Shown here one piece after another: positions 63 through 32,158 of a stretch of DNA of 38,701 nt. Under the pieces are notes generated by a model. That model ran no database searches. It saw only the letters and a list, made by a program, of their open reading frames with translations, and was not told the origin of the DNA. The translations under genes were made by a program, and so were the position numbers. The stretch is from Acidobacteriota bacterium (GTDB lineage: Bacteria > Acidobacteriota > Terriglobia > Bryobacterales > Bryobacteraceae): NCBI GenBank assembly GCA_003223115.1, contig QHXW01000288.1, positions 1 to 38,701 on the forward strand, written 5' to 3'. How positions within the stretch are numbered: position 1 is the stretch's first letter; the number at the start of each line of letters is the position of its first letter.

Positions 63-1010
63 CTAGCTGCCGAGCCGGGAGGTTGCCGCAGCCTGTATCT
101 TTTCTACGTCCGCCGCTTCGCCGAATTTGATGCCCTTCAGGGACGAGTCAATGCTCCGCAGCAGCCCCGAAAGCACGCCGCCGGGTCCCACCTCGATGAA
201 GCGGTCTACCCCGCGTGACATCAGATGGCGAATGGTTTCGTGCCAGCGAACCGTGTTCGGTATCTGCTCGATCAGGCCCTGGCGGGCTTCCGTTCCCGTG
301 TGGATCTCGCGGGCCTGCCAGTTATTGACGAGCGGCCAATCGAGGTCGTCGAAGGTGACCGTCGACAGGTCGGCCAGCAGCCGCTGCTGCGCCGGTTTCA
401 TCAGAGGGCAGTGGAAAGGCGCGCTCACCTGCAGCAGCACCGCGCGTTTGGCGCCCGCCGCCTTGGCTAATTCAATAGCCCGGTTTATCGCGCCTGCGTG
501 ACCGGCGATGACCACCTGGTCAGGCGCGTTGAGATTTGCCGCGGTCACCACTTCGCCTTGCGCAGCCTTCTCGAGCACATCTTTCAAGCGCTCCGACTCG
601 AGCTTCAGTAGAGCCGCCATGGCGCCCGCACCCGGCGGCACGGCTTCCTGCATGTAACGGCCGCGCTTACGCACCAGTCGCAGAGCATCGCTGAACCGAA
701 TGCTGCTGGCCGCCACCAGCGCCGAATATTCTCCCAGGCTGTGGCCGGCCACATAATCGGGCCTCAAGCCCAGTTCTCGTAGAACCGTGAACGCCGCAAT
801 CGAGGCCGTCAGGATGGCGGGCTGCGTGTTCTCGGTGAGCTTCAATTGTTCTTCGGTACCTTTGGCGCAAAGAGCGGAAACAGACAAGCCTAGTGCCTGG
901 TCCGCCGATTCGAACACCAGCCGCGCGGCCGGATATGTCTCGGCCAGCGACTTACCCATGCCCGTGTATTGCGATCCTTGTCCAGGAAACAGGAATGCCG
1001 TTTTGCCCAT
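63..1010 (-). CDS. fabD: Malonyl CoA-acyl carrier protein transacylase FabD
   Basis: Moves malonyl groups from CoA to acyl carrier protein, the entry step of type II fatty acid synthesis in the cytoplasm. The 315 residues match the family's usual length. Visible motifs are the N-terminal FPGQGSQ, the nucleophile elbow GHSLGEYSAL with Ser91, the RGRYMQEAVP segment (about 116-125), His200 in APFHCPLM, and the late EVGPG..L motif. The frame stays open upstream to 1298, but the family begins at MGKTAFLFPG, so the ATG at 1010 is chosen. No Shine-Dalgarno precedes it; a TACAAT hexamer ends 8 nt upstream, which suggests a leaderless mRNA. Transcribed divergently from the aminotransferase gene. No other fab gene is in the window. 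Confidence 0.96.
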   Translation of the reverse strand: MGKTAFLFPGQGSQYTGMGKSLAETYPAARLVFESADQALGLSVSALCAKGTEEQLKLTENTQPAILTASIAAFTVLRELGLRPDYVAGHSLGEYSALVAASSIRFSDALRLVRKRGRYMQEAVPPGAGAMAALLKLESERLKDVLEKAAQGEVVTAANLNAPDQVVIAGHAGAINRAIELAKAAGAKRAVLLQVSAPFHCPLMKPAQQRLLADLSTVTFDDLDWPLVNNWQAREIHTGTEARQGLIEQIPNTVRWHETIRHLMSRGVDRFIEVGPGGVLSGLLRSIDSSLKGIKFGEAADVEKIQAAATSRLGS

Positions 1011-1018
1011 TGGATGAG

Positions 1019-1028
1019 ATTGTATGAT
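1019..1028. promoter_or_regulatory. Overlapping divergent -10 elements for fabD and argD
   Basis: The 24 bp between the two start codons contain ATTGTATGAT. Minus strand: TACAAT (1019-1024) lies 8 nt before the fabD ATG. Plus strand: TATGAT (1023-1028) lies 6 nt before the aminotransferase ATG. The hexamers share two bases, so polymerase could probably not occupy both at once. Any -35 element would fall inside the opposite gene's coding region; none is convincing. Confidence 0.55.
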
Positions 1029-1034
1029 GGTCCA

Positions 1035-2273
1035 ATGAGTTCCGCCACGCCCACCACTACGCCGACAGAGCAGATCATGGAGCTGGAGCGTGAATATCTG
1101 CTCCAGAACTATAGCCGCTACCCGCTGGCGCTCGAACGCGGCGAGGGCTGTTTCGTGTACGACGTGGAAGGCAACCGCTATCTCGATTTCATCGCGGGGA
1201 TCGGGGTCAATGCGCTCGGACACAATCATCCGCGCATTGTGAACGTGATTCGCGAGCAATCCGCGCTGCTGATCCACTGTTCCAACCTTTACTACCACCG
1301 TTACCAGGGACCACTGGCCAAGAAGCTGGCCGAGGTGAGCGGGCTCAAGCGTTCATTTTTTGCCAACAGCGGAACCGAGGCCATGGAAGGCGCGTTGAAG
1401 ATGATGCGCGCGCACGGCCGCAAGATCAACCCCGCGAAATTCGAGATTCTCTCTCTCGAGAACTCCTTTCACGGCCGCAGCCTGGGAGCGCTGTCGGTCA
1501 CGGGTCAATCCAAGTACCGGAACGATTTTGAGCCGCTGCTACCAGGAGTGAAATTTGTTCCACCTAACGATGTGTGGGCGCTTGAAGCGGCTTTCAGTGA
1601 ACGTACGGCGGGTATCGTGATCGAGTGGATCCAGGGCGAAGGCGGCATTTTCCCGATGACGGTTGAATACGCGCGCAGAGCGCGGGAACTGGCGGACCGC
1701 TACGACGCGCTGCTGGTGTTCGATGAAATCCAGTGTGGTGTCGGCCGCCCCGGTACCTGGTTCGGTTACCAGTTGGCCACACCGGTGGTGTTACCGGACG
1801 TCATGGTGGCGGCTAAGCCCTTGGCCTGCGGCCTGCCGCTGGGTGTGATTGTTGCGAATGAGCGGGCGGCTGCGGCGATCGCCCCCGGAATGCACGGGTC
1901 CACGTTCGGCGGGAGCGCACTCGCCTGCCGTGTGGCGCTCGAGTTTTTCGACATTCTGGATGAGCTGCTGCCGGCGATCCGGCGCGCCGGCGATTATTTT
2001 CGCGAGCGCCTGGGGGATCTGGGCCGTAAGCATAGTTTCATTCGCGAAGTCCGGGGCCATGGCCTGATGATTGGCCTGGACCTCGAGGTTCCAGGCAAGC
2101 AGATGGTGTTGGATGCGCAGGCGCGCGGTCTGTTGATCAATTGCACGCATGATACGGTGCTGCGTTTCCTGCCGCCATATATTGTGACGGAGAGCGAAGT
2201 GGACCAGGCCGTCCGGATTCTGGACGCGATTTTTGCCGCGCAGCCGCCAACCGCCGGGCCCTCCGCAGACTGA
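1035..2273 (+). CDS. argD: Class III PLP aminotransferase, acetylornithine aminotransferase-like
   Basis: A pyridoxal-phosphate aminotransferase of subgroup III, probably making N-acetylornithine in arginine synthesis. From the ATG at 1035 it has 412 residues. Visible are the substrate-domain start RGEGCFVYDVEGNRYLDF, the phosphate-binding NSGTEAMEGALK (111-122), Asp230 in LLVFDEIQCGVGR, and the Schiff-base lysine Lys261 in AAKPLACGLPLG. The lysine loop (KPLACGLPLG rather than the common KALGGGLPIG) is slightly atypical, so a GABA, ornithine or LysJ-like specificity cannot be excluded. No other arginine gene is adjacent. The start is backed by a TATGAT hexamer 6 nt upstream and no Shine-Dalgarno; an alternative in-frame ATG lies at 1077. 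Confidence 0.88.
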   Translation: MSSATPTTTPTEQIMELEREYLLQNYSRYPLALERGEGCFVYDVEGNRYLDFIAGIGVNALGHNHPRIVNVIREQSALLIHCSNLYYHRYQGPLAKKLAEVSGLKRSFFANSGTEAMEGALKMMRAHGRKINPAKFEILSLENSFHGRSLGALSVTGQSKYRNDFEPLLPGVKFVPPNDVWALEAAFSERTAGIVIEWIQGEGGIFPMTVEYARRARELADRYDALLVFDEIQCGVGRPGTWFGYQLATPVVLPDVMVAAKPLACGLPLGVIVANERAAAAIAPGMHGSTFGGSALACRVALEFFDILDELLPAIRRAGDYFRERLGDLGRKHSFIREVRGHGLMIGLDLEVPGKQMVLDAQARGLLINCTHDTVLRFLPPYIVTESEVDQAVRILDAIFAAQPPTAGPSAD

Positions 2274-2290
2274 AGTCCGCGCCGACTCTT

Positions 2291-3370
2291 TTACAGCAAA
2301 TCGTGGCGCTCGTTTAGCTCCAGCAACTTGACGATCTCACCGACTTGCTGCGCGCAATTCCGGTCCGCGATCAGCAGCGCGTCAGGGGTATCAACTACCA
2401 CCAGATTACTCACGCCCAGAATGGCGACGAGTTTGTCGCCGGCATCAATGAAGTTGTCCGTGCTTGCGTGAGAAACGATGGTCGACCGTGCCGCGTTTCG
2501 GTGCCGGTCCTTGGCATGCAGCTCGTAAACCGCGTTCCAGCTGCCGACGTCATTCCAACCGATCTCATCACATGCCAAACCCACAACGTTATCGGCGCGC
2601 TCGAGCACCGCGTAATCAATCGAGATGTTTTCGCACAGCGGGAACGCTTCGCGGAGTTTTTGATTGAACTGGCGGTGGCCGAACGCCGGCAGAGTGGCAA
2701 GAATACTGGCGGTCTTCGGCAGGTAGCGGCGCAAGGCGTCGATCACGACGCTGGCGCGCCAGAAAAACATTCCGGCGTTCCAGTAGAATCGCTTCGCGGC
2801 CAGGTATTTTACGGCGGTTTTGAGGTCCGGCTTCTCGCGAAAGCTCGAGACCGGCGCCGGTACCAGCGAACCGGGCTTCGCCCCGCGTAGAAGTTCGATG
2901 TATCCGTATCCGGTTTCCGGCCATCTAGGCAAAATGCCTAAAACGCCTATTTTCCCGCGATCGGCAGCGCCAAACGCCGCGCGCACGAACTGCAGATAAC
3001 GCGAGGGCCTGCCAATGACATGGTCGGATGGAAATACGCCCATCACGGCGTCCTGGTCCACTGATTTAAGAATATGAGCTGCCAGACCGATGGCCGGAGC
3101 CGTGTTTCGCTGCGCCGGCTCGGCCAAAATCTGCCGCTGTGGAACCGTTGGAAGCTGCCGCACGATGACGTCCCGGAGATGATCATTGGTCAGCACCCAA
3201 AGCCGCTCCGGCGGGATAGCGGGGCTCAACCGGTCCACGGTGGCCTGTATGAGTGTCCGGTCCCCCAGGATCGGCAGGACCTGTTTCGAATGCTTGCGGC
3301 GGCTGCGCGGCCAAAAGCGGGTACCGCGCCCTCCGGCCAAGATCAGGCCGTAATAGTGCGGCTTGGACAT
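2291..3370 (-). CDS. manC: Mannose-1-phosphate guanylyltransferase
   Basis: Makes GDP-mannose from mannose-1-phosphate and GTP, a precursor for polysaccharide and glycan synthesis. The 359 residues match the nucleotidyltransferase-only form of the family, without the C-terminal isomerase domain of bifunctional ManC/AlgA. Visible are the nucleotide-binding LILAGGRGTRFWPRSRRKHSKQ near residues 9-30, the metal-binding PSDH, the substrate loop ETGYGYIE, FREKPD, the FYWNAGMFFW segment, and ISIDYAVLE followed by GWNDVGSW. It starts 3 bp after the signal peptidase stop with no clear Shine-Dalgarno, so the two genes probably share a transcript. Confidence 0.93.
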   Translation of the reverse strand: MSKPHYYGLILAGGRGTRFWPRSRRKHSKQVLPILGDRTLIQATVDRLSPAIPPERLWVLTNDHLRDVIVRQLPTVPQRQILAEPAQRNTAPAIGLAAHILKSVDQDAVMGVFPSDHVIGRPSRYLQFVRAAFGAADRGKIGVLGILPRWPETGYGYIELLRGAKPGSLVPAPVSSFREKPDLKTAVKYLAAKRFYWNAGMFFWRASVVIDALRRYLPKTASILATLPAFGHRQFNQKLREAFPLCENISIDYAVLERADNVVGLACDEIGWNDVGSWNAVYELHAKDRHRNAARSTIVSHASTDNFIDAGDKLVAILGVSNLVVVDTPDALLIADRNCAQQVGEIVKLLELNERHDLL

Positions 3371-3373
3371 GGT

Positions 3374-4015
3374 TCACTGGATCGGATAGCCGTGAATCAA
3401 CCTGAAACTGCGTTTCCACCGCGTCTTGGTAAAGAAATGCTGAAGCAGATCAACCAGATGATCGATGCCGATGGCAGGGTTTGACAACGCTTCGGTGGGT
3501 GCGTCGTAGGACCAGTAAATAATCAGTGGCTTGCCGATGATGTTCTCACGCGGCACAAAGCCCCAGTACCGGCTGTCGAGCGATGAATCGCGATTGTCGC
3601 CCATGGCGAAATAATGGTCCTGCGGCACAACGATCTCACCATTCACCTGATTATTCTGAAGCATCTCCTGCGCCGGGGGATAGAGGCTGACATTCGGGGC
3701 GGACGGAAAGTTATCGCGGTATGAATCGACATACTCGGTCTTGTTGTACTTGTACGGTTCGTCAAGCTGATGGCCGTTCAGAAACACGCGCTTGTTTTCC
3801 ATGCGGATATGGTCGTTTGGAACCCCTATCACGCGTTTGACAAACGTCTGCCGGATGTCGATGGGGTAGCGAAACACGATGATGTCGCCGCGTTTGATGT
3901 CTTCGTAGGGCAGCAGATGCCGGGTGACGGCTCCCGGCGGTGCGTAGGCCAGTTTGTCAACCAGCAGGTGATCTCCGATCAGCAGCGTGTCTTCCATCGA
4001 GCCCGTGGGAATCAC
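3374..4015 (-). CDS. lepB: Signal peptidase I catalytic domain, membrane anchor missing
   Basis: Type I signal peptidase normally cleaves exported proteins at the periplasmic face of the inner membrane. The catalytic region is intact: Ser6 in IPTGSMED, Lys60 in FVKRVIGVPND, and the late GDNRDSSLDSRYWGFV box. The open frame starts at a GTG only five codons before the serine, so the N-terminal transmembrane segment that precedes IPTGSM in the family is absent. The hydrophilic N-terminal tail typical of these proteins does sit just upstream, in another frame (4012-4092). This points to an internal deletion of the anchor that is not a multiple of three. As it stands the protein would be cytosolic and probably useless. 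A second lepB elsewhere, or an assembly error, is possible. Confidence 0.85.
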   Translation of the reverse strand: MIPTGSMEDTLLIGDHLLVDKLAYAPPGAVTRHLLPYEDIKRGDIIVFRYPIDIRQTFVKRVIGVPNDHIRMENKRVFLNGHQLDEPYKYNKTEYVDSYRDNFPSAPNVSLYPPAQEMLQNNQVNGEIVVPQDHYFAMGDNRDSSLDSRYWGFVPRENIIGKPLIIYWSYDAPTEALSNPAIGIDHLVDLLQHFFTKTRWKRSFRLIHGYPIQ

Positions 4016-4092
4016 GGCGGAATATCGCTCTTTGACGTCTTCTTGATCTGCTCCGGAGCCTGTTCGGCTACGGTGGTGTTCTCTTGACTCAC
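4012..4092 (-). pseudogene. Detached N-terminal tail of signal peptidase I
   Basis: Starting at the GTG at 4092 this frame encodes 26 residues beginning (M)SQENTTVAEQAPEQ and continuing IKKTSKSDIPP, then stops. The charged, Gln/Glu-rich tail ending in lysines is what usually comes just before the transmembrane helix of signal peptidase I. Its TGA overlaps the GTG of the catalytic fragment in the sequence GTGA, so coupled translation of the two parts is conceivable. The simplest reading is that these are the two ends of one gene whose anchor-coding middle was deleted. Confidence 0.6.
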
Positions 4093-4101
4093 GATAAGAC
4101 C

Positions 4102-4107
4102 ATTGTA
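4102..4107 (-). promoter_or_regulatory. -10 element of the lepB-manC unit
   Basis: TACAAT on the minus strand, 9 nt before the GTG at 4092. No Shine-Dalgarno lies between them and no good -35 was found. It fits the -10-plus-start-codon pattern seen at other operon heads in the window. Confidence 0.45.
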
Positions 4108-4194
4108 TCGGAAACGAAAGGGGCGAATTGCCGGGAAATTGCTTGCGGCAGCATCACACCGGAATTGAGGCGAAAATGGGGTTCAGCCTGGTAT

Positions 4195-4210
4195 TGTGGA
4201 TCTGCTCACA
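4195..4210 (+). promoter_or_regulatory. CRP/FNR-like palindrome upstream of the EamA/SMR pair
   Basis: TGTGG-ATCTGC-TCACA has the 16-bp geometry of a CRP-family operator (TGTGA-N6-TCACA) with one mismatch in ten half-site positions; the palindrome extends one base outward as TTGTG...CACAA. It lies in the 159-bp gap between the divergent lepB and EamA/SMR genes, centred about 49 bp before the latter's start codon. No regulator gene is nearby, so the assignment rests on sequence shape only. Confidence 0.35.
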
Positions 4211-4238
4211 AAGAATCGTCCGAACCCGGCGGCTTTGT

Positions 4239-4244
4239 TATGCT
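4239..4244 (+). promoter_or_regulatory. Possible -10 element of the EamA/SMR pair
   Basis: TATGCT lies 7 nt before the GTG start at 4252. It matches the -10 consensus at the first three and the last position. The GAGG between it and the start is only 2 nt from the GTG, too close to act as a normal ribosome site. Confidence 0.35.
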
Positions 4245-4251
4245 GTGAGGC

Positions 4252-4653
4252 GTGGTACCATCCGCCGCCTCGACGGTTCCGATATACCATCGGCCGCTGA
4301 CGCGTTCTCAGTCGATCGCGCTTGTTTTTATGTGTACTTTGTTCGGCGCGGGCGCTCAAATGCTGATGAAGGTCGGCTTGAGCCAGATGACGCATTCTGG
4401 TCTGACCGGTTACCTCACCAGTCTGCCTTTGTTGGGAGGCTATTGCCTCTATGGGATGAATACCGTGCTGATGGTGTTCGCTTTGCGGGACGGCGAACTC
4501 TCGGTCCTCTACCCCATCATCGCGCTGACCTACGTCTGGGTGACCATTCTGTCGGTTATCTTTTTCCACGAATCCCTCAACATTTTCAAGGTTTCAGGTA
4601 TCGCGGTCGTGGTAGCGGGAGTGGCCGTGCTGGGCAGGCGAGGCGAAGAATGA
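4252..4653 (+). CDS. EamA/SMR-like four-helix membrane protein, first of a pair
   Basis: A 133-residue protein with four predicted hydrophobic helices: SIALVFMCTLFGAGAQMLMKVG, then LPLLGGYCLYGMNTVLMVFAL, LSVLYPIIALTYVWVTILSVIFF and VSGIAVVVAGVAVLG. This is the half-size EamA/small multidrug resistance architecture, also used by the ArnE/ArnF lipid-carrier flippase subunits. The G-E-L-S-V-L-Y-P motif before helix 3 is shared with its neighbour. GTG at 4252 is the first usable start in frame. The stop overlaps the next start as ATGA, so the two proteins are probably made in equal amounts and may form a heterodimer. The substrate is unknown; an undecaprenyl-linked or small cationic substrate would fit the family. 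Confidence 0.8.
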   Translation: MVPSAASTVPIYHRPLTRSQSIALVFMCTLFGAGAQMLMKVGLSQMTHSGLTGYLTSLPLLGGYCLYGMNTVLMVFALRDGELSVLYPIIALTYVWVTILSVIFFHESLNIFKVSGIAVVVAGVAVLGRRGEE

Positions 4654-8781: not shown

Positions 8782-9489
8782 GTGCCGGTCCTGGTATTTC
8801 GTCACGTTCCTTTTGAACATCTCGGTTGGATTGCGGATGCGCTCGACGAGCACGGGCTCGAGTGGCGCTATGTCGATCTTCACGAATTGCCTGACGCGGA
8901 CGTCCGCCCTGCCGATGCCGATGCTTTGATCTTCATGGGCGGGCCGATGTCGGCGAATGATGACCTGCCTTACATACAACGCGAACTGGCGTTGATCGAG
9001 GAGGCCGCGACGCTCGGAAGGCCGCTGCTGGGTGTTTGCCTGGGCGCGCAATTGATAGCGAAAGCGCACGGCGCGAGCGTGTATCGGAGTGCCGTCAAAG
9101 AAATTGGCTGGCTGCCGGTCTCGTGGACCGCTGCTGCAAACGAAGACCGGCTCTTCGCGGGCTTAGGGAACCCTGAGACCGTGTTCCACTGGCACGGCGA
9201 AACGTTCGACCTGCCCCCAGGCGCGGACTGGCTGGCCTCTTCATCCGGCTGCCGGCATCAGGCTTACCGCATTGGCGACAGGATTTACGGGTTGCAATTC
9301 CACCTTGAGGTGACGCCACAAATGATCAGCCAGTGGTGCGTGGAGGACGCGAATTGCGGCGATATCCGGGAGGTGGCTGAGCCCATCGATCCGCACGCAC
9401 ACTCTGAGCGCATGAAAGACCTCGCGCGCCTGATTTTCGGCCGCTGGTGCAAGCTGATCGCGGAGTTTGTTAGAAGATGCGCCGCTTGA
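8782..9489 (+). CDS. Class I glutamine amidotransferase, GMP synthase-like
   Basis: A stand-alone glutamine amidotransferase domain of 235 residues. The catalytic triad is visible as Cys86 in LLGVCLGAQL, His174 and Glu176 in LQFHLEVTP; MGGPMSAND is the oxyanion-loop region. Proteins of this type are often labelled GMP synthase because they resemble the GuaA amidotransferase half, but no synthetase domain is present. The acceptor is unknown; release of glutamine or gamma-glutamyl groups from small molecules is possible. The start is the GTG at 8782, 8 bp after the amidase stop, so it belongs to the same run of genes. Its end overlaps the next gene by 13 bp. Confidence 0.88.
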   Translation: MPVLVFRHVPFEHLGWIADALDEHGLEWRYVDLHELPDADVRPADADALIFMGGPMSANDDLPYIQRELALIEEAATLGRPLLGVCLGAQLIAKAHGASVYRSAVKEIGWLPVSWTAAANEDRLFAGLGNPETVFHWHGETFDLPPGADWLASSSGCRHQAYRIGDRIYGLQFHLEVTPQMISQWCVEDANCGDIREVAEPIDPHAHSERMKDLARLIFGRWCKLIAEFVRRCAA

Positions 9490-10109
9490 TGCGAGCCGTG
9501 ATGCCGGCCGCGGGCGCCATTTTGCTGGCCGCTGGCGCTGCCTACTGCGCCGAAACCGTTCGACTTCATCCGTATCCGCAAAAGTTCCGGACGTTTTACC
9601 AGGTCACCAATCCACGTGTTCCTACCGAGGTGAAGGTCGCGCCTGGTGCGCCACCGCAAGGTGAGGCATGTTGCGTCGCGAGAGCCGGCGACGGGGCTCT
9701 GTGGCACGGCACGCGGCAAGGCGCCGTGCGTATCGACAACAACGCCAGTTCGCTCGATCGCCGCCAGTACTTTGCCGGCCTGCGCTACCTGCCCGACGAC
9801 GAGGTTCTCAATCTGGTTGCCGACAACGCTCGTGGCATCTGGGTGCGCACACGAACCGGCGTTTCGCACATCGAGCTGCGGGCGATGACGCTTGGTCAGA
9901 AGGCGGAGTTCTTCGAAAAGCGTATTCGCGAGCGCCATGACCGCTACGGGCTGGTTGCGTCGTCGCGCCTTGAAACACCCGGGGAGCTTGCGAGCAATCA
10001 GCTCGAGCCCAGCGATAATGACGGCCTCTGGTCGGCCATGTATGCCGCCGCGGAATGTTTTCGTTATGCCGTGACCCGCTCGCCCCAGGCACTGGCCAGC
10101 GCGAAATAA
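9477..10109 (+). CDS. N-terminal part of an interrupted secreted propeller/toroid-like protein
   Basis: 210 residues with a signal peptide (MRRLMRAVMPAAGAILLAAGAAYCAE). The middle carries two short repeats resembling two-component-regulator propeller blades: DGALWHGTRQGAVRID and ARGIWVRTRTGVSHIE. The end, DNDGLWSAMYAAAECFRYAVT, looks like the first helices of an alpha/alpha toroid. It stops at a TAA at 10107-10109, but the same frame continues without shift into the next entry, whose beginning completes the helical domain. The two are almost certainly one 537-residue protein (9477-11090) split by a single nonsense codon. Its function is unknown; a secreted glycan-active role is a guess from the fold. 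Confidence 0.75.
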   Translation: MRRLMRAVMPAAGAILLAAGAAYCAETVRLHPYPQKFRTFYQVTNPRVPTEVKVAPGAPPQGEACCVARAGDGALWHGTRQGAVRIDNNASSLDRRQYFAGLRYLPDDEVLNLVADNARGIWVRTRTGVSHIELRAMTLGQKAEFFEKRIRERHDRYGLVASSRLETPGELASNQLEPSDNDGLWSAMYAAAECFRYAVTRSPQALASAK

Positions 10110-10121
10110 TCGATCAATGCC

Positions 10122-11090
10122 GTGCTGTTCTTGGAGCAGGTGACCGGCAGGCCGGGATTTCCGGCGCGCTCCTACATTCGAAAGGGAGACTGGCGGCCGG
10201 CTGATGGCGTCTGGCATTGGACTCCGGACGGCAGGTACGAGTGGAAAGCCGACACCAGCTCGGACGAAATCGTGGGCCACTTTTTCCTTTTCGGTGTGGC
10301 GTGGGATTTGCTACCCGATGAAAACTTACGCGCGCGCATCCGGGTAACTGCTACGCGCATCATGGATCACATCCTGGCGCACGGCTACAACCTGACGGAC
10401 GTACACGGTAAGCCGACAACATGGGGCCGATGGTCCCGCGAGTACTTCGAGAGCAAGGCCGGCCGTTCTGACAGCGCCTTGAACGCGCTCGAGCTGCTGA
10501 GTTTTCTCAAGGCGGCAGCGCATATCAGCGGAGACCCAAAATACGAAAGTGAGTACCGGCGCTCCGCGGTTGACTTGAAATATCTGGACCAGAGCACCCG
10601 CTATCTCGAGCTGCGGGAGGAGATCAATTACTCGGATGAGGAACTTGCCATGTTGAGCTTCTACGCGATTTTCCGTTACGAGCAGGCCGCCCACTTTCTG
10701 GAATCCTACCGCCGCGCGGCCAGCCAGTGGTGGAACAATATCGAGCGCGAAAGGAACCCGCTCTGGACTTTCATTTATCTGCTGGCAAAACCGGCCCGGC
10801 CTGTGAGTATGGAAAATGCTGCGTGGGCGCTCTGCCGGATTCCCATGGACCTGATCGAATGGACGGTGAAAAACTCCGGACGCAGCGACGTAGCGATGGA
10901 CTCCGCAACGGATCGCTTTCATAAGCGGCAGTCGGTTCAATTGCTTCCACCCGATGAGCGGCCGGTGATGAAGTGGAACGGGAATCCTTTCCGGATTGAC
11001 GGCGGCAATGGCGGACGCGGAGAAGATGATGGAGCGTTTTTCCTGCTGCCTTACTGGATGGGCCGGTATATGAGAGTGCTAGCCGAGTGA
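10122..11090 (+). CDS. C-terminal part of the interrupted propeller/toroid-like protein
   Basis: 322 residues from a GTG at 10122, in the same frame as the preceding part and 12 bp after its stop. It has no signal peptide or ribosome site of its own. Helical segments such as DEIVGHFFLFGVAWDLL, NALELLSFLKAAAHIS and the Trp-rich RRAASQWWNNIERERNPLWTFIYLL suggest an all-alpha toroid, as in six-hairpin glycosidase-like proteins. The in-frame codons between the stop and this GTG (SINA) read as normal protein sequence. Readthrough of the TAA or recent inactivation are the options. Its end overlaps rnc, transcribed toward it, by 12 bp. Confidence 0.75.
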   Translation: MLFLEQVTGRPGFPARSYIRKGDWRPADGVWHWTPDGRYEWKADTSSDEIVGHFFLFGVAWDLLPDENLRARIRVTATRIMDHILAHGYNLTDVHGKPTTWGRWSREYFESKAGRSDSALNALELLSFLKAAAHISGDPKYESEYRRSAVDLKYLDQSTRYLELREEINYSDEELAMLSFYAIFRYEQAAHFLESYRRAASQWWNNIERERNPLWTFIYLLAKPARPVSMENAAWALCRIPMDLIEWTVKNSGRSDVAMDSATDRFHKRQSVQLLPPDERPVMKWNGNPFRIDGGNGGRGEDDGAFFLLPYWMGRYMRVLAE

Positions 11091-17273: not shown

Positions 17274-18667
17274 CTAGACGCCCCAGAGCTCGTCAACCGG
17301 TCCGTAAACGTTCGTATCAGAAAACGGCACGTAATAGAAACCGCGCCCGAAGGGGTCGTCGTGCCGCACCGTGGTCCAATTGATTCCCATGGCGGAATAA
17401 ATGGTGGCCTCGATGTCCTCCGGTTTGATGTCCCGATTGCGCGACCAGCCATATTCCGCTGAGGCGGAGCCTTGGCCGTTGGTGGATCCGATGGTATGGC
17501 CGCCTTTGATCCCTCCTCCTGCGAAGACGGCAAACTGCTGCAGATAGTGATCGCGTCCCTGAGCTCCGGAAAGTTGGCCTACGGTGCGCCCGAACTCGCC
17601 GGCCATCACGAGCATGGTGTGATCGAACAGGCCGCTCGACCTCAGATCGTCAATCAGAGCCGAGAGGCCATCATCCAAAATCTTTCCAAGCGCAGGCAGA
17701 CGCCCGTAGATGTCGCTATGCATGTCCCAGCCGCCGAGCGTGATCTGGATAAAGCGCGTGCCCTGGTCCGCAGCGAGCACCTGTTTGGCCACCAGGCAGG
17801 CGTTGCCAAAACTGTTCTTGCCGTATCGCTCGCTGTCCGTATCTGAAAACGTGAACGCTTGACCGACGGCCGGGTTATACATCAGACCTTTTGCGGCGGT
17901 GTAGAAATTGTCGTAATCCTCCGGATCTTTACCGAAGGGAGAGTTGATGCGCAACGGGTCGTCGAGCGCGTGCAGCAGGTTCCAGCGGTTGTTAAAGCGG
18001 CCGGTGCCGTTAGGATCGGCGGGATGGGTGGTGTCGACGATACCCTGAGTCGAAGGCGTCACTTTGAATGCCGCATATTGCGCGGGAAAGTAGCCCGGTC
18101 CCGCGGCCGTGCCAGAATTAAGAGCCAGAAAGGTCGGGAACACCTGACCCGGCCGGCGTTCAGATTCCTTCTCGATGGCGACGACACTGCCGATATGCGG
18201 CGCGATGTTGCCCAACGCAGCCGCTGGGTTGCGCCCAATCTGCGTCCAGGTCTGCGCCAATGTATGCACCAGCGCCCAGGCGCGCACGGAGCGCACTATT
18301 GCTATGTCGGAAAGATGCTGTCCGATCCGGGGCAGCAGGCCCGCTGGCCACAACAGGCCGTTCATGGTGGTTGGGTTGAAGCTGGTGGGCGTGACGCCTG
18401 GCACCACTTTCAAATCGAAGGTATCGATGTGGCTGGGGGCGCCCGCCAACAGAATGAAGATGACGTTTTTCACCGTGTTCCGCGGCGTCGCCGAAGCTAC
18501 CGCGGTCTCATCCGCGGCGCGCAGCTTGCCGCACAGCCAGGATGCCGTAACGCCCGAGCCCGCGATTTCGAAGAACCGCCGGCGCGTGATGTGCGGCGGT
18601 CGAAGAAGGCCTTGTGCGGATGTGGATAGCGCTTCAAGAAGCGTTCGAATTTGTCCTGTCCTTCCAT
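17274..18667 (-). pseudogene. DUF1501 family protein, one frameshift near its N-terminus
   Basis: DUF1501 proteins are Tat-exported, sulfatase-like proteins that accompany DUF1549/DUF1553 proteins in Planctomycetes and Solibacteres. The open part (17274-18473, from a GTG) has the core VIFILLAGAPSHIDTFDLK, GGWDMHSDIYGRLP, MLVMAGEFGRTVGQLSGAQGRDHYLQQ and GGGIKGGHTIGSTN. The true start is the ATG at 18667, with GGAG just upstream, encoding MEGQDKFERFLKRYPHPHKAFFDR; this joins to PHITRRRFFEIAGSGVTASW (Tat motif) only after a frame change at about 18595-18603. A span of 1394 bp, one short of a multiple of three, fits one lost base. It lies 9 bp after its DUF1549 partner. Confidence 0.85.
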
Positions 18668-18676
18668 ATGCTCCGC

Positions 18677-20740
18677 CTAGTAATTGAAAACGAAGTCCAC
18701 TTTGTTATAAAGCGACCAGAGCAGGTCCTCAGCCGCTTGCTGACGGTTCGCTGCCTTCCCAAAACTGGCGAGTGCCATGTTTCTCTCTTGATCTGTTGGA
18801 TAACGCGAAAGCACCGCCAGGTACAGCGTGTGAATCAGTTCGTCGTCCGGCTGTTTGATATTTCGCGCGAGAAAGGCCAGTGCCTGGTCCTGTTGCGTGC
18901 ACGCGGCTGGCGACGAATTTGTCGTTCATGAGGTCGAGCGCCTGCAGGATCGAGCCCTCGGCGCGCCGCTGCTGATCATCGCGGTTGCCACGTAGAAAAT
19001 TATCCAGGAACTGACTGACCGCTCCATTCCCGTCCGGCACTCCCACCACGTCCGGAAACTGCAGGGCCCATTTGATTCGCCCAAAACCGGGGTAATCCGT
19101 CCCGTCAACCGTGGTGGCCTGGCTGAACCCGCGAATGTTGTAGCTGGGCACGATGCCGCTCGATTGCACGATGGCATCGTGAATCTCTTCAGCCCACAGC
19201 CGCCGCACCATCTTTCGTGCGAACAGGCTTTCCCAGGCGGGATTCCACGCTCCCCTATAGCGGGAGGAAAGCTGATAGACCTCGGAGTGTGTGATGTCGC
19301 GCATCAGCGATTTGAGATCGAAGCCGCTGTCGATGAAGCGCTGGGCCAGCGCGTTCAATAATTGGGGGTCTGACGGCTGAATGGTCCAGGGCGCGGGCGG
19401 CGGATTATTCGGATCGAGGCGCGCCAGGTCGAATTGGTTCGGAGGGTCGACAATTCCGCGGCCGAAGAATTGCGCCCAGATGTAGTTCACGGCGGCTTGC
19501 GCGAACTGCATGTCGGAAGTGACATAGAGAGCCAACGCCCCACGATAATCCTGACCTTGCGCGGGCGTTTCGCCGTTGAAGAAATACACGGGCGCTACCT
19601 TAACGATAGTGCCATTCGGCCGGCGCGGCGGACGATTGCCTGTGGTTGTGTTCAGCGGATAATCGTTCCGAAAACGCGGCACCTCATCCTGGACTGACCA
19701 ATGATACTTAGGCCCGTTTGCGTTCGCTGTGCGGACCCTCCGCGTGGCCGTATGCGAGAGAAAGGATGCGAACTGCCAGGCCTGGTACCGTGTAGTCCGG
19801 CTGCCCCACACGCTCAGTTGATCCAGATGTCCACGCCCGTTATGGCACAGCAAACAGTTCATGTGCGAGATGCCCAGAAAGGTCTCCGCGACATTCGCCA
19901 CCTGCTGGTCCATGATGTCCTGTACAGGGCCGCCGGTCACCACGCCACCCACTAGCCAATTGAGAGCACCCTGGTTCGGATCAAAGCTGTTTCCGCCTTG
20001 GGCCGAGATCAACTCGCGCGCCATCTGATCATACGGTTTGCCGGAGGCCAACGAATCATGAATCCACTGATAGAAAGCGTTCCGGCCCTCGGGATAACGG
20101 TTGATTTGCGTATTCCGAACGGTGTTCTTGAATAGATCGCCGAAATACAGGGTCCATCTGTCCACCCACGCGGGCGCGCCAAGCAGCTCGTCGACCATGC
20201 GCCGCCGCTTGTCGGGCGCGGTCTCTACGACAAAGCCCAAGACACGTTGAGGGTCGGGTATGCGGCCGGTCAAGTCGACCGTCGTCGCTCGGCGGATGAA
20301 TTCGAAATCGGTGGTCTTTCCGGCCGGCATGACGCCAGCGGCCTGCATATCAGCATAGAGATACGAATCGATCAGCTCCAGGTTTTGAGTGTTGGTGAAG
20401 CTGCTGAGCCGGTCAGTGCTTTGCAACCCGTTCAAGCGCCGGGTCACCTGATCGGTCAACGCGCTGAGAGTCGATTCTTTTCGACCGGCTGGACGGATGC
20501 GCTCTTCATCAATTGGGATGCCGACGCGTCGCGCGATTCGCCGAAGAAGCTACATTCGGCGTGTGCCACGGCCAACTGCTCACCGTCATCGGGCGGCTCA
20601 CTCGCTGGGTCGGCTGGCGTTCCACCGGTAACAGCCGCATGGGCCACAGGCTGCTGGGCGGCGATGTGTGCAACGCTGAAAATCATGACGCCGCACAAGA
20701 TCAGAATCGCTCCGAGCGTATGACTTCGTTGTCGATGCAT
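18677..20740 (-). pseudogene. DUF1549/DUF1553 family protein broken by two frameshifts
   Basis: Three pieces in different frames make one protein. Piece 1 (20740 to about 20470) has a signal peptide (MHRQRSHTLGAILILCGVMIFSVAHIAAQ) and ends VEKNRL. Piece 2 (about 20466 to 18887) resumes SALTDQVTRRLNG and holds the DUF1549 core (FEFIRRATTVDLTGRIPDPQRV, WTLYFGDLF, NCLLCHNGRGHLDQL) and the DUF1553 region (AVNYIWAQFFGRGIVDPPNQFDL, MRDITHSEVYQLSSRY). Piece 3 (about 18886-18677) ends with the family's LYLAVLSRYPTDQE and DLLWSLYNKVDFVFNY. The first shift coincides with CTCTC at 20466-20470, as if a CT were duplicated. The span is a multiple of three, so the shifts compensate. It lacks the heme domain of the 27.8 kb relative. 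Confidence 0.85.
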
Positions 20741-27844: not shown

Positions 27845-30457
27845 GTGCGTGTGATTAGCTGGTTGGCGGCAATATCTGCGTTAGTGGTGCTTGGTCTAGC
27901 CACTGGTGGTGAGATTTCCGCAGCCGAGCGCGTGTCATTCTCCAAAGATATCCAGCCAATTTTCGAGAGCACCTGCTGGAAGTGTCACGGTGAGGCTCTC
28001 CAGCTTTCTCAGCTTGATTTGCGCACCCGCGAGAGCGCGCTGAAGGGCGGCCAGCGCGGGCCGGCCCTGGTACCCGGCAGTGCGGATCAAAGCCGTATCT
28101 ACAGGCTGGTGGCAGGCCTTGAGAAACCGTCCATGCCCATGGACGGCACCAAACTTACGCCTGAACAGATCTCGGCCATCAAGGATTGGATCAACGCAGG
28201 TGCGCCATGGGACCCGTCGGCGGGCGGTGCATCGAGTTCGGCTCCAGCGGTTTTCGCCGAGACGCCCATTCCCGAGCAGGCGCGCCGCTACTGGGCGTTT
28301 CAAAAACCAGCGCGGCGTTCCGTTCCTATCGCGCGCGACCCACGCAACAAAGCCCACCCCGTCGACGCGTTTCTCGTACAGGCGATGGAACAGCAAGGGC
28401 TCGAGCCCGCTCCTGAAGCTGATCCGAGAACTCTGGTTCGACGCGCCTATCTCGACCTCACTGGACTTCTACCCACTCCCGCTGAAACGGCCGCGTATTT
28501 GAAGGATCAATCGCCGAATCGATGGGATGAGCTGATTGATCACTTGCTCGGCTCGCCACACTATGGTGAGCGCTGGGGGCGGCACTTGCTGGACGTGGCG
28601 CGATATGCCGATTCAAATGGTTTCGAACACGATTTCGACAGGCCCGACGCCTGGCGGTACCGCGATTACGTCATTCGCGCATTCAATCAAGACAAACCGT
28701 TCAATGTTTTTCTCGAAGAACAGATTGCGGGTGACGAGCTTGACCGGGTCACCAAAGAGAGTTTGATCGCTACTGCTTTCTTGCGCTGCCACGCCAAGGT
28801 GGGTTTCCGCGAGAAAGACAATCCGCAGTACCGGTATGACTACTTGGATGACATGATCGCAACAGTGGGGCGGGGCATTTTGGGCCTGACCATACAGTGC
28901 GCCCGCTGTCATGATCACAAGTTTGATCCGATCACGCAACAAGATTATTACCGGTTGCAGGCGTCACTGTTCGGTTACGTAGAAGTGGAACACCCGCTCA
29001 CGTCAACGAAAGAGTCGGAAGCCTATAACAAGAAGATTGTGAATATCGAACAGCGACTGAAGCCGCTTAAGGGCGAACTGAAACAGCTGGAGCGGCCGTA
29101 TCGAGACCGCCTGTTGCCGGAAAAATACAAGGAATTTCCAGAGAACGTTCAGATCGCAATCCGGACTCCGGAAGCTCAACGCACACCCGGCCAGGCGCTG
29201 CTGGCGGCGCAGGTGATTCGCACGACGGATGTATCGTCCAAAGAAATCGAGCGCCTTATGACGCCCTCAGACTTCGCGCGGAAGCGCCAGCTCCACGAAG
29301 CCATCCGCCGCCTCGAGCAGGAAAAACCGCCGCCGATTTCAGTAGCCATGGGAATCACCGACGGCGACTATCGGTTTGCGCCGGATGGCCCGGGTGATGA
29401 GCCAGAGCCAGGCAAGGGAGTCAAGCGCGAAGCCATTGAGGGAACATTTCTGCACCAGGGGCCCGGCCGCTACCAGGCGCCGCCCTCATATTTTCTGATT
29501 CGCGGTGATTATCAGAGCCGCGGTCCACAGATGCGGCCGGGCTTTCCCGCTGTGCTCACCTACGGGAATCCCCCGGTTGAGATTCCCGGAGCGGACGGCC
29601 ATACGTCGGGCCGCCGCCGCGCGCTGGCTGAGTGGTTGACCTCGACGGACAACCCGCTGACGGCACGCGTGATTGTCAACCGGATTTGGAATCACCACTT
29701 CGGGCGCGGCATCGTTGCGACGCTCGACAATTTCGGCAAAATGGGCGAAAAGCCCACTCATCCGGAACTGCTCGACTGGCTGGCCGTTGATTTCATGCGC
29801 CACGGATGGAGCATCAAATATCTGCACCGGCTCCTCATGTCTTCGGCCGCTTACCAGCGTGCTTCACGCTATGAGAACGCGGCGGACCTGGCGAAAGATC
29901 CCGAGGATATCTACCTATGGCGCTTTCGCATCCAGCGCCTCGATGCCGAAATCGTGCGCGATGTGATCCTGGCAGCCAGTGGCGCCCTCAACACGGAAAT
30001 GTTCGGGCCGCCGGTATTTCCGAAGCTGCAACCGGAAGTGCTCCACGCCATGACGAAGGGCATCTGGAACCAGGAACAGGATGGTCCGAAAGTGTGGCGT
30101 CGCAGCGTCTACGTGTATCGTAAGCGCGGCCTGCCGTTTCCTTTGTTCGAAGTATTCGATCTTCCGGACCAAAACCTCACCTGCAGCCGGCGCAATGTCT
30201 CTACGGTTCCGACTCAAGCTTTAACGCTGCTTAATGACGATTTTGTCCTTCGACAGGCTCAGTTGTTTGCCGATCGAGTTCGGGAAGCCGCACCCAGCGA
30301 CGCAACAGAACAGGTGCGGCTGGCCTATGGAATCTCGCTCAGCCGGCCGCCCACGGCCGAAGAGAGCCGCCTGGCAATGGAGTTTCTGAGGAAACAGAAG
30401 CTTGTAGATCTGACTCACGTGCTGTTGAATCTGAATGAGTTCGTCTACATGCGGTAA
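27845..30457 (+). CDS. PSCyt1-DUF1549-DUF1553 heme protein
   Basis: An exported multidomain protein of 870 residues, abundant in Planctomycetes and Solibacteres. From the GTG start: a signal peptide (ISWLAAISALVVLGLATGGEISAAE), then a planctomycete-type cytochrome c domain (FSKDIQPIFESTCWKCHGE) with heme ligands Cys44, Cys47 and His48, the DUF1549 domain (VDAFLVQAMEQQGLEPAPEADPRTLVRRAYLDLTGLLPTP...HYGERWGRHLLDVARYADSNG), a second CxxCH (Cys352, Cys355, His356 in CARCHDHKFDPI), and DUF1553 (ARVIVNRIWNHHFGRGIV, LLMSSAAYQRASRY). These proteins are thought to work with DUF1501 proteins in polysaccharide breakdown; the biochemistry is unproven. It is intact, unlike the relative at 18.7-20.7 kb. 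Confidence 0.93.
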   Translation: MRVISWLAAISALVVLGLATGGEISAAERVSFSKDIQPIFESTCWKCHGEALQLSQLDLRTRESALKGGQRGPALVPGSADQSRIYRLVAGLEKPSMPMDGTKLTPEQISAIKDWINAGAPWDPSAGGASSSAPAVFAETPIPEQARRYWAFQKPARRSVPIARDPRNKAHPVDAFLVQAMEQQGLEPAPEADPRTLVRRAYLDLTGLLPTPAETAAYLKDQSPNRWDELIDHLLGSPHYGERWGRHLLDVARYADSNGFEHDFDRPDAWRYRDYVIRAFNQDKPFNVFLEEQIAGDELDRVTKESLIATAFLRCHAKVGFREKDNPQYRYDYLDDMIATVGRGILGLTIQCARCHDHKFDPITQQDYYRLQASLFGYVEVEHPLTSTKESEAYNKKIVNIEQRLKPLKGELKQLERPYRDRLLPEKYKEFPENVQIAIRTPEAQRTPGQALLAAQVIRTTDVSSKEIERLMTPSDFARKRQLHEAIRRLEQEKPPPISVAMGITDGDYRFAPDGPGDEPEPGKGVKREAIEGTFLHQGPGRYQAPPSYFLIRGDYQSRGPQMRPGFPAVLTYGNPPVEIPGADGHTSGRRRALAEWLTSTDNPLTARVIVNRIWNHHFGRGIVATLDNFGKMGEKPTHPELLDWLAVDFMRHGWSIKYLHRLLMSSAAYQRASRYENAADLAKDPEDIYLWRFRIQRLDAEIVRDVILAASGALNTEMFGPPVFPKLQPEVLHAMTKGIWNQEQDGPKVWRRSVYVYRKRGLPFPLFEVFDLPDQNLTCSRRNVSTVPTQALTLLNDDFVLRQAQLFADRVREAAPSDATEQVRLAYGISLSRPPTAEESRLAMEFLRKQKLVDLTHVLLNLNEFVYMR

Positions 30458-30557
30458 CTTGCCACGGGGTGGGGCGGGAGCGAGAATAAGAGCGGATGAA
30501 CGAAGCGCAATTGATCCTTTCCGCCGTAACGATTTGCCGTCGTGCTCCCGAGTTTTC

Positions 30558-30695
30558 ATGGACAATCAGAGGCTGAACAGTATGGAGGTCCGCCTGGATG
30601 CTCGCATGACCAGCTTTGAAAACAAGTTCGATACGAAAATTGACCTGGTCACAGAGAACCGGCTCAGCCGCATCGAAGAGCACCTCCGAAGGTAA
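30558..30695 (+). CDS. 45-residue coiled-coil protein
   Basis: Encodes MDNQRLNSMEVRLDARMTSF followed by ENKFDTKIDLVTENRLSRIEEHLRR. Leucine, methionine, phenylalanine and isoleucine fall at heptad-like spacing among charged residues, so it should form one coiled-coil helix; proteins of the same MDxxRLxxLExRxD...RIEERL style are widespread small hypotheticals. It sits between the PSCyt1 and DUF1501 genes, ending 2 bp before the latter's start, which supports it being a real gene of this operon. The same frame is open further upstream (to 30435), but that part reads like non-coding sequence. No clear Shine-Dalgarno. Confidence 0.55.
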   Translation: MDNQRLNSMEVRLDARMTSFENKFDTKIDLVTENRLSRIEEHLRR

Positions 30696-30697
30696 GC

Positions 30698-32158
30698 GTG
30701 AGATCCCTCCGCTCGAGACGCGATTTCTTATTCCAGGCCGGCGGCGGCCTGAGCGGTTTGGCGTTGGCCTGGCTGCTCGATCAGCAGGGCCTGCTGGCGG
30801 CCGATCGCGCGCCTGCATCCGGTGCGTGCGCGGCAAATCGTTCCGGCCCGACGCCGTTCACTGCTAAACAAACTCATTTCACTCCACGCGCGACCAGCGT
30901 GATTTCCCTGTTCATGAGCGGCGGTGTCAGCCACGTGGATACGTTCGATCCGAAGCCACAGCTCGCACGTTACGCCGGCCAGCCGCTCACTGGCAAGGGC
31001 GAAGTCATCGTACGGCAAGGAAACCCCGGTCCATTGATGCCGAGCCCGTTCAGTTTCCGCAAGTACGGACAGAGCGGAATGGACATTGCGGAAATTTTTC
31101 CTCAACTTGCGCAGCACGCCGACGATCTGGCACTGCTCCGCTCGGCTTACGGCCAATCAAACGACCACGTACAGGCTCACTACCTGCTGGCGACCGGTAC
31201 CGTGCGCATGGGATTTCCCAGTGTGGGTTCGTGGATCACATATGGGCTTGGAACAGAGAATCAAAACTTGCCTGCCTTTGTGGTGATCTATGACGCGCGC
31301 GGCGGGCCTTTCGGTGGACCCGCGAACTGGAGCGCCGGGTTCATGCCTGCTGCCTATCAGGGCACGGTATTTCGCGCCTCGGATAATCCCATCATCGATT
31401 TGAAGCCACCGGCTTCTGTGACCCTTGAAGAACAGCGCGCCCGGCTGGATTTGTTGGCGAAGCTGAACGAACTCGATTTGCAAAAATATCCTTCGAGTTC
31501 GGAACTCGCCGCGCGCATTTCCTCTTATGAGCTGGCATATCGCATGCAGGGCTGCGCTCCGGAAGCCGTCGACGTGAGCCGCGAAACGGAGCCAACGCGC
31601 AAGCTTTACGGTCTCGATAATTCCACCACCGAACCTTTCGGTCGCCAGTGCCTGATGGCCCGACGGCTGGTCGAGCGCGGCGTGCGATTCGTGCAGGTCT
31701 ATCACGGCGGCTTGGGGAATCAGAACACCGACACCTGGGACGCGCACGACGACGTCAAGAAAAATCACACCACGCACGCGGCTGAGGTGGACCGGCCTAT
31801 CGCCGGTCTGTTGACGGATTTAAAGGCACGCGGTCTGTTCGATTCCACACTCGTTGTCTGGCACTGCGAGTTTGGACGGATGCCGATTTCTCAGCGCGGT
31901 GTGGGCCGCGACCATAACCCGGGCGCGATGAGCATGTGGATGGCGGGAGCGCGTATCAAAGGCGGCCAGGCGATTGGCTCGAGCGACGAGTTCGGATACA
32001 AAGCCGAGCAACAACCTGTTTCGGTTCATGATCTGCACGCGACGATTCTGCATTTGTTAGGCATGGATCATACCCGTCTCACTTATCTTTATAATGGCCG
32101 CCAGATGCGTCTCACCGACGTCTACGGCGACCCCGTCCCACAGATTACGCGGAGTTGA
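30698..32158 (+). CDS. DUF1501 family protein, Tat-exported
   Basis: 486 residues from the GTG at 30698. The N-terminus RSLRSRRDFLFQAGGGLSGLALAWLL has a twin-arginine export motif. The DUF1501 core follows: SVISLFMSGGVSHVDTFDPKPQL, LLRSAYGQSNDHVQAHYLLATG, FGRQCLMARRLVERGVRFVQVYHGG, TWDAHDDVKKNHTTHAAEVDRPIAGLLTDLKARGLFDSTLVVWHCEFGRMP and GAMSMWMAGARIKGGQAIGSSDEFG. The fold is related to alkaline phosphatase and sulfatase families, with Asp/His residues in the conserved blocks likely to bind metal. It is the intact counterpart of the frameshifted gene at 17.3-18.7 kb and pairs with the PSCyt1 protein upstream. Confidence 0.92.
   Translation: MRSLRSRRDFLFQAGGGLSGLALAWLLDQQGLLAADRAPASGACAANRSGPTPFTAKQTHFTPRATSVISLFMSGGVSHVDTFDPKPQLARYAGQPLTGKGEVIVRQGNPGPLMPSPFSFRKYGQSGMDIAEIFPQLAQHADDLALLRSAYGQSNDHVQAHYLLATGTVRMGFPSVGSWITYGLGTENQNLPAFVVIYDARGGPFGGPANWSAGFMPAAYQGTVFRASDNPIIDLKPPASVTLEEQRARLDLLAKLNELDLQKYPSSSELAARISSYELAYRMQGCAPEAVDVSRETEPTRKLYGLDNSTTEPFGRQCLMARRLVERGVRFVQVYHGGLGNQNTDTWDAHDDVKKNHTTHAAEVDRPIAGLLTDLKARGLFDSTLVVWHCEFGRMPISQRGVGRDHNPGAMSMWMAGARIKGGQAIGSSDEFGYKAEQQPVSVHDLHATILHLLGMDHTRLTYLYNGRQMRLTDVYGDPVPQITRS

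Follow-up and report, generated by a model that had tools for sequence, protein, structure and literature searches.

A signal peptidase I gene without its membrane anchor in an Acidobacteriota draft genome looks like a recently broken redundant copy or a consensus error

Introduction

Is a signal peptidase I gene whose membrane anchor is missing, and whose remaining parts lie in different reading frames, a broken gene, an error of the draft assembly or the record of an enzyme that has adopted an anchorless form? The question is posed by a stretch of 38,701 nucleotides (contig C211 of an Acidobacteriota draft genome; hereafter the window), in which an initial annotation, made from the letters alone, had recognized such an arrangement. 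It touches on a function that can be indispensable: E. coli LepB is described as essential in PMC9360617. Here we confirm the observation and suggest that its explanation looks ordinary, namely that a redundant gene was broken recently or that the consensus is in error.

Layout of the locus

The features relevant to the argument are the following:

2291..3370, minus strand: intact gene for a mannose-1-phosphate guanylyltransferase-like nucleotidyl transferase (manC-like; Pfam NTP_transferase and ManC_GMP_beta-helix)
3374..4015, minus strand: catalytic part of signal peptidase I, 213 amino acids with Ser6, Lys60 and GDNR 139-142, complete, anchorless and out of frame with the tail (ORF, Pfam and alignments)
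4012..4092, minus strand: hydrophilic N-terminal tail with a GTG start and 26 codons, ending in a TGA after the deletion (translation; collinear with the tails of the same-genus genomes G002 and G001 up to the junction)
4016..4017, minus strand: deletion junction, 73 bases of both same-genus genomes missing between these two bases, the anchor in the relatives reading RGVIAEWTVTIILLLFGTTTLVQAF (alignments; L133:10399-10471 unmatched)
4102..4107, minus strand: TACAAT, a -10-like hexamer 9 bases before the tail GTG and a possible, near-leaderless promoter (read in the sequence)
4252..4653, plus strand: small EamA-family transporter gene, divergent from lepB (domain match; G001 and G002 each have a counterpart in this position)

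Examination of the window sequence and its translations shows, on the minus strand, a type I signal peptidase gene whose tail and catalytic part occupy different frames, at the positions and with the GTGA overlap that had been described initially. The tail opens with a GTG at 4092-4090, reads VSQENTTVAEQAPEQIKKTSKSDIPP in a frame other than the catalytic one, and stops at a TGA at 4014-4012, which overlaps the GTG of the catalytic part at 4015-4013. The catalytic ORF matches the Pfam Peptidase_S26 profile (PF10502) with an E-value of 4.5e-45; the match covers positions 28-168 of the 168 in the profile and so lacks its beginning. Its Ser 6 and Lys 60, which we take to be the catalytic dyad, and GDNR 139-142, presumably box E, are identical in 80 of 80 relatives. 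The presence of the Ser/Lys boxes in an S26 domain, supported by the Pfam match, the relatives and an alignment with the structure 1b12, identifies the gene as a type I signal peptidase (LepB, peptidase family S26), and what the window does not provide is a transmembrane anchor in frame with them. Upstream of box A the catalytic frame contains no hydrophobic stretch (the best 19-residue Kyte-Doolittle mean is -0.45), and translation recovers the anchor in none of the three frames at the locus, in agreement with the missing transmembrane segment noted at the outset.

As the two frames abut, translational frameshifting or bypassing could be thought to link the tail to the catalytic part. However, none of the three frames encodes the anchor, so that joining the parts would not restore it, and both same-genus relatives encode it in a single frame; we regard such recoding as exceedingly improbable.

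The window lepB is the orthologous copy

We recovered 302 relatives of the window locus and kept the best 80 for counts of anchors, flanks and conservation; these loci overlap in part with the other locus set used (e.g. L036 and L007). The anchor is in frame in all of the best 80, in each of which QAF precedes box A. Since the missing piece is precisely the anchor that every one of them has at that place, the observation is not due to chance. A wider set that includes paralogues comprised 174 distinct frames, with ten loci giving no match; once 23 frames without a recognized box A had been excluded, 150 of the 151 counted frames were anchored, and the sole exception is that of the window. Among the 23 uncounted frames many have an anchor on sight; decayed copies or fragments from L060, L106, L107 and L139 also belong to this group. 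As far as these sequences reach, the anchor loss is private to this genome among the relatives examined. The lesion thus occurs in one genome and the gene is intact in its close relatives, as expected of a pseudogene, in a comparison that took in a single genome of this species.

Several lines of evidence identify the closest counterparts of the gene. In the same genus, a lepB lies beside a manC-like gene both in G002 (contig C1, loci L007/L036) and in G001 (contig C528, loci L008/L037), i.e. the same gene with the same neighbours. Their products are 84% and 83% identical, respectively, to that of the window over 213 catalytic residues and have a similar hydrophilic tail; unlike the window, both have 73 additional bases coding for the anchor and are in a single frame. 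In a tree of 26 rows, the window lepB groups with these two copies with a support of 99/99. Moreover, the manC-like gene directly follows lepB on its 3' side in 52 of the 80 relatives (78 of which have more than 600 bases of 3' flank) and the window is collinear with G002 over a 14-kb stretch, which indicates that the window lepB is the orthologous copy.

A single loss of 73 bases

Alignment with the relatives, by which the initial annotation had proposed to size the deletion, gives a gap of exactly 73 bases against both G002 and G001, after which the window sequence restarts at the Val of F-V-I-P-T-G-S-M. Likewise, blastn matches window positions 100-4016 to L133 14337-10472 and positions 4017-4114 to 10398-10301, leaving 10399-10471 of L133 without a counterpart in the window. 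The missing bases are 73 of the 75 that code for RGVIAEWTVTIILLLFGTTTLVQAF, so the loss takes in the anchor along with the Phe that precedes box A. The initial annotation had named, as evidence against its reading, relatives in which 20-35 anchor codons are intact at this site. Such relatives do exist: they have 25 codons here, and it is this stretch that the window has lost save for two bases.

Because 73 is not divisible by three, the loss puts the catalytic part in a frame other than that of the tail; hence one deletion event accounts for both the anchor loss and the frame difference that were noticed at first. The GTGA overlap likewise follows from the frame shift at an old Val codon: the codon preceding IPTGSM specifies Val in the relatives too, being GTG in G002, L038 and L040, GTA in G001 and GTC in L039. 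We also considered clean slippage between direct repeats, given that in G002 two copies of CGTGAT lie 69 bases apart at both ends of the missing stretch, the second copy reading CGTAAT in G001. Such slippage would remove 69 bases and keep the frame, and therefore cannot by itself fully account for the observed gap of 73.

Constraint in the catalytic part and the case for an anchorless enzyme

The catalytic part was inspected for signs of decay. Relative to three outgroups it has 4 lineage-specific residue changes, as against 7 in G002 and 12 in G001, and its end branch in the tree is the shortest of the three (0.078 versus 0.093 and 0.15). Among 114 columns conserved in at least 90% of 81 rows the window departs at 2, within a range across rows of 0-12. 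One residue, Asn where 80 of 80 relatives have Gly (G67N), stands out; since 10 of the 81 rows have a private departure of this kind from an otherwise invariant column, it is a weak sign of decay. The dN/dS ratios are rough, as synonymous sites are near saturation among the three genomes of the genus (dS 1.3-3.0). These comparisons point to hardly any general decay of the catalytic part, so that the deletion would have to be either very recent or an error of the assembly.

The same absence of general decay, with all catalytic residues kept, could be read as favouring a third explanation, which the initial annotation had raised as the adoption of an anchorless form: a signal peptidase I made by stopping and restarting at the GTGA, soluble or peripherally bound, and active after the loss of its anchor. 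Stop/start overlaps are a feature of translationally coupled genes, and the TGA/GTG overlap here resembles them. Furthermore, the E. coli domain without residues 2-75 is active in vitro. Yet the Val before IPTGSM is ancestral and it was the frame shift that brought the TGA to this codon; the overlap can thus be explained without selection. The cut also takes the Phe before box A, which plays a part in the substrate pocket and is found in every one of the 80 relatives, and it leaves no hydrophobic segment that could act as an export signal. None of the other classified frames has this layout, all 150 being anchored, and no natural anchorless bacterial signal peptidase I appears among the matches listed in the signal peptidase literature, as represented by titles and the beginnings of abstracts. 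We therefore find no positive support for this proposal and consider it highly unlikely.

Other signal peptidase copies in the genome

The initial annotation had reasoned that the cell needs another copy and had suggested looking for a second lepB in the rest of the genome. A Pfam search locates S26 domains in six places: the window and contigs C522, C152, C124, C357 and C263. Three of the five others are full-length with an anchor on sight, namely those on C522 (264 amino acids), C124 (320 amino acids) and C152 (184 amino acids). The other copies are thus present, and their activity is a prediction. In the tree, the C522 copy clusters with the second copies found in G002 and G001 (support 92/76), on a branch below the tree program's starred level. 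This grouping suggests that two copies existed before the deletion, and hence that the redundancy in the genus, with its two close copies, is probably older than the deletion. Positions 1-283 of C522 hold the C-terminus of the second lepB, and a repeat of them on C467 suggests strain variation at a contig break.

Given three full-length anchored S26 copies, of which the one on C522 is akin to the second copy of the genus, loss of the window lepB need not be lethal. As would be required of a pseudogene that is tolerated, the copies on C522, C124 and C152 appear able to cover the function.

Real deletion or assembly error

The reading that we favour, at roughly an even chance, is that a lepB common to the window's bacterial family was recently broken by a single 73-base deletion. 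Broken tandem S26 copies beside an intact one, which also occur in L060, L106 and L107, were counted in favour of a real deletion. Its main competitor is that lepB is intact in the organism and that the draft consensus lost the 73 bases, e.g. through the misjoining of strain variants of a conserved stretch; this we hold to be possible rather than probable. The draft genome totals 9.14 Mb over 594 contigs, with estimates of 97.49% completeness and 4.8% contamination, and the start of C467 (L004) repeats C522:1-283 (L002) on the other strand with a small difference, as judged by eye. In addition, constraint on the catalytic part looks complete, the tail stays collinear with those of the congeners right up to the junction, and 57 of 61 genomes have S26 matches at an E-value of 1e-20 or better.

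Against an assembly error, searches of the assembly return no second, intact version of the locus. The window DNA matches only the window itself, C522 and four short, weak segments, and the anchor peptide of a congener matches C522, C124, two pieces of the window and, weakly, C261. The alignment with the congeners further shows that the two sides of the junction have at most one base in common. Assemblers join reads on overlaps, and a junction of this kind is unlike what such joining needs.

General poor quality of the assembly was considered as a cause and rejected on the basis of a control. From G002 C1 we took 305 stop-to-stop ORFs of at least 150 amino acids, 68 of which had a counterpart in 21 pieces of G000 (367,465 bases) under a rule of at least 55% identity and coverage of about half of the ORF or more, a rule that badly shortened genes escape. 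Of these 68, 54 were clean, 2 had frame-break flags and 13 had in-frame stop flags, manC being among the 13. Split flags fell only on lepB and on manC, whose stop-to-stop frame extends back into lepB and was flagged for that reason. Of the other 12 stop flags, 6 concern stops confined to roughly the first eighth of the alignment and 3 concern stops confined to its first third; such early stops are expected where stop-to-stop ORFs overrun the true start. In the sole stop-flag case checked by position, a fabD-like gene of the window, all three stops lie upstream of the gene. Of the remaining flags, one belongs to an ORF spanning the window genes 9477-10109 and 10122-11090 and two (L218 and L225) lie well inside short ORFs; apart from these two, the compared genes are not split in the manner of lepB.

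The spanning ORF is of separate interest: the window genes 9477-10109 and 10122-11090 are adjacent and in the same frame (9477-11090, plus strand), and the single stop-to-stop ORF of G002 that covers both could represent a fusion or a missing stop in the relative.

Possible promoter and consequences of the deletion

At 75-260 bases upstream of box A, 34 of 80 relatives have a TAYAAT; of 388 control segments, drawn from farther upstream in these loci and not matched for coding status, 1 does. This enrichment, along with the TACAAT before the tail GTG of the window, hints that transcription of lepB may well be intact despite the deletion. A generic promoter scan of 3900-4400 returned no promoter. 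The position of the hexamer also raises the prospect that the lepB transcript of the window's family is nearly leaderless, with GTG as its start codon. Elsewhere, the window encodes two pairs of DUF1501 with PSCyt2/PSD1 (DUF1549/DUF1553) genes (17274-20459, minus strand, and 27845-32158, plus strand), the second of which also contains a planctomycete-type cytochrome C domain.

If the deletion is present in the DNA of the cell, use of the normal GTG start would yield a 26-residue peptide followed by a stop. A restart at the overlapping GTG would give a catalytic protein that begins one residue before Ile-Pro-Thr-Gly-Ser; having neither membrane anchor nor export signal, it would probably remain in the cytoplasm, away from its substrates. 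Little or no catalytic protein is probably made in any event. We infer that the function of this lepB would be lost and that secretion would depend on the anchored copies that remain, chiefly the one on C522.

A real deletion would capture the initial stage at which one among several redundant signal peptidase genes is lost. The case would chiefly counsel caution: when a draft genome shows an 'essential' gene as broken, the gene may have further copies or the consensus may be wrong. It would acquire a wider importance only if the unlikely reading as an anchorless enzyme were true.

Comparison with known signal peptidases

The catalytic part of the window aligns with that of E. coli signal peptidase I (LepB; 1b12 and 1t7d) with an E-value of 2.6e-28. 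According to PMC9360617, the periplasmic domain of the E. coli enzyme lacking residues 2-75 was successfully produced and its structure determined, a precedent that lends the anchorless reading some plausibility. In this form the membrane part is absent, as in the window, although it was removed on purpose, and the same paper places natural E. coli LepB in the inner membrane. In the 1b12 chain, ten residues precede the Ile corresponding to residue 2 of the window's catalytic part, so that a product started at the second GTG would be shorter at its N-terminus than the solved domain.

A further parallel is provided by the broken tandem S26 copies of L060 (about 3783-4318), L107 (3658-4328) and L106 (1243-1951), whose signal peptidase frames are broken like that of the window. 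In L060 the broken copy, too, has lost its anchor, together with box A. All three broken copies lie directly behind an intact one; in the window, by contrast, it is the copy in the conserved neighbourhood that is broken, and the spare lies on another contig.
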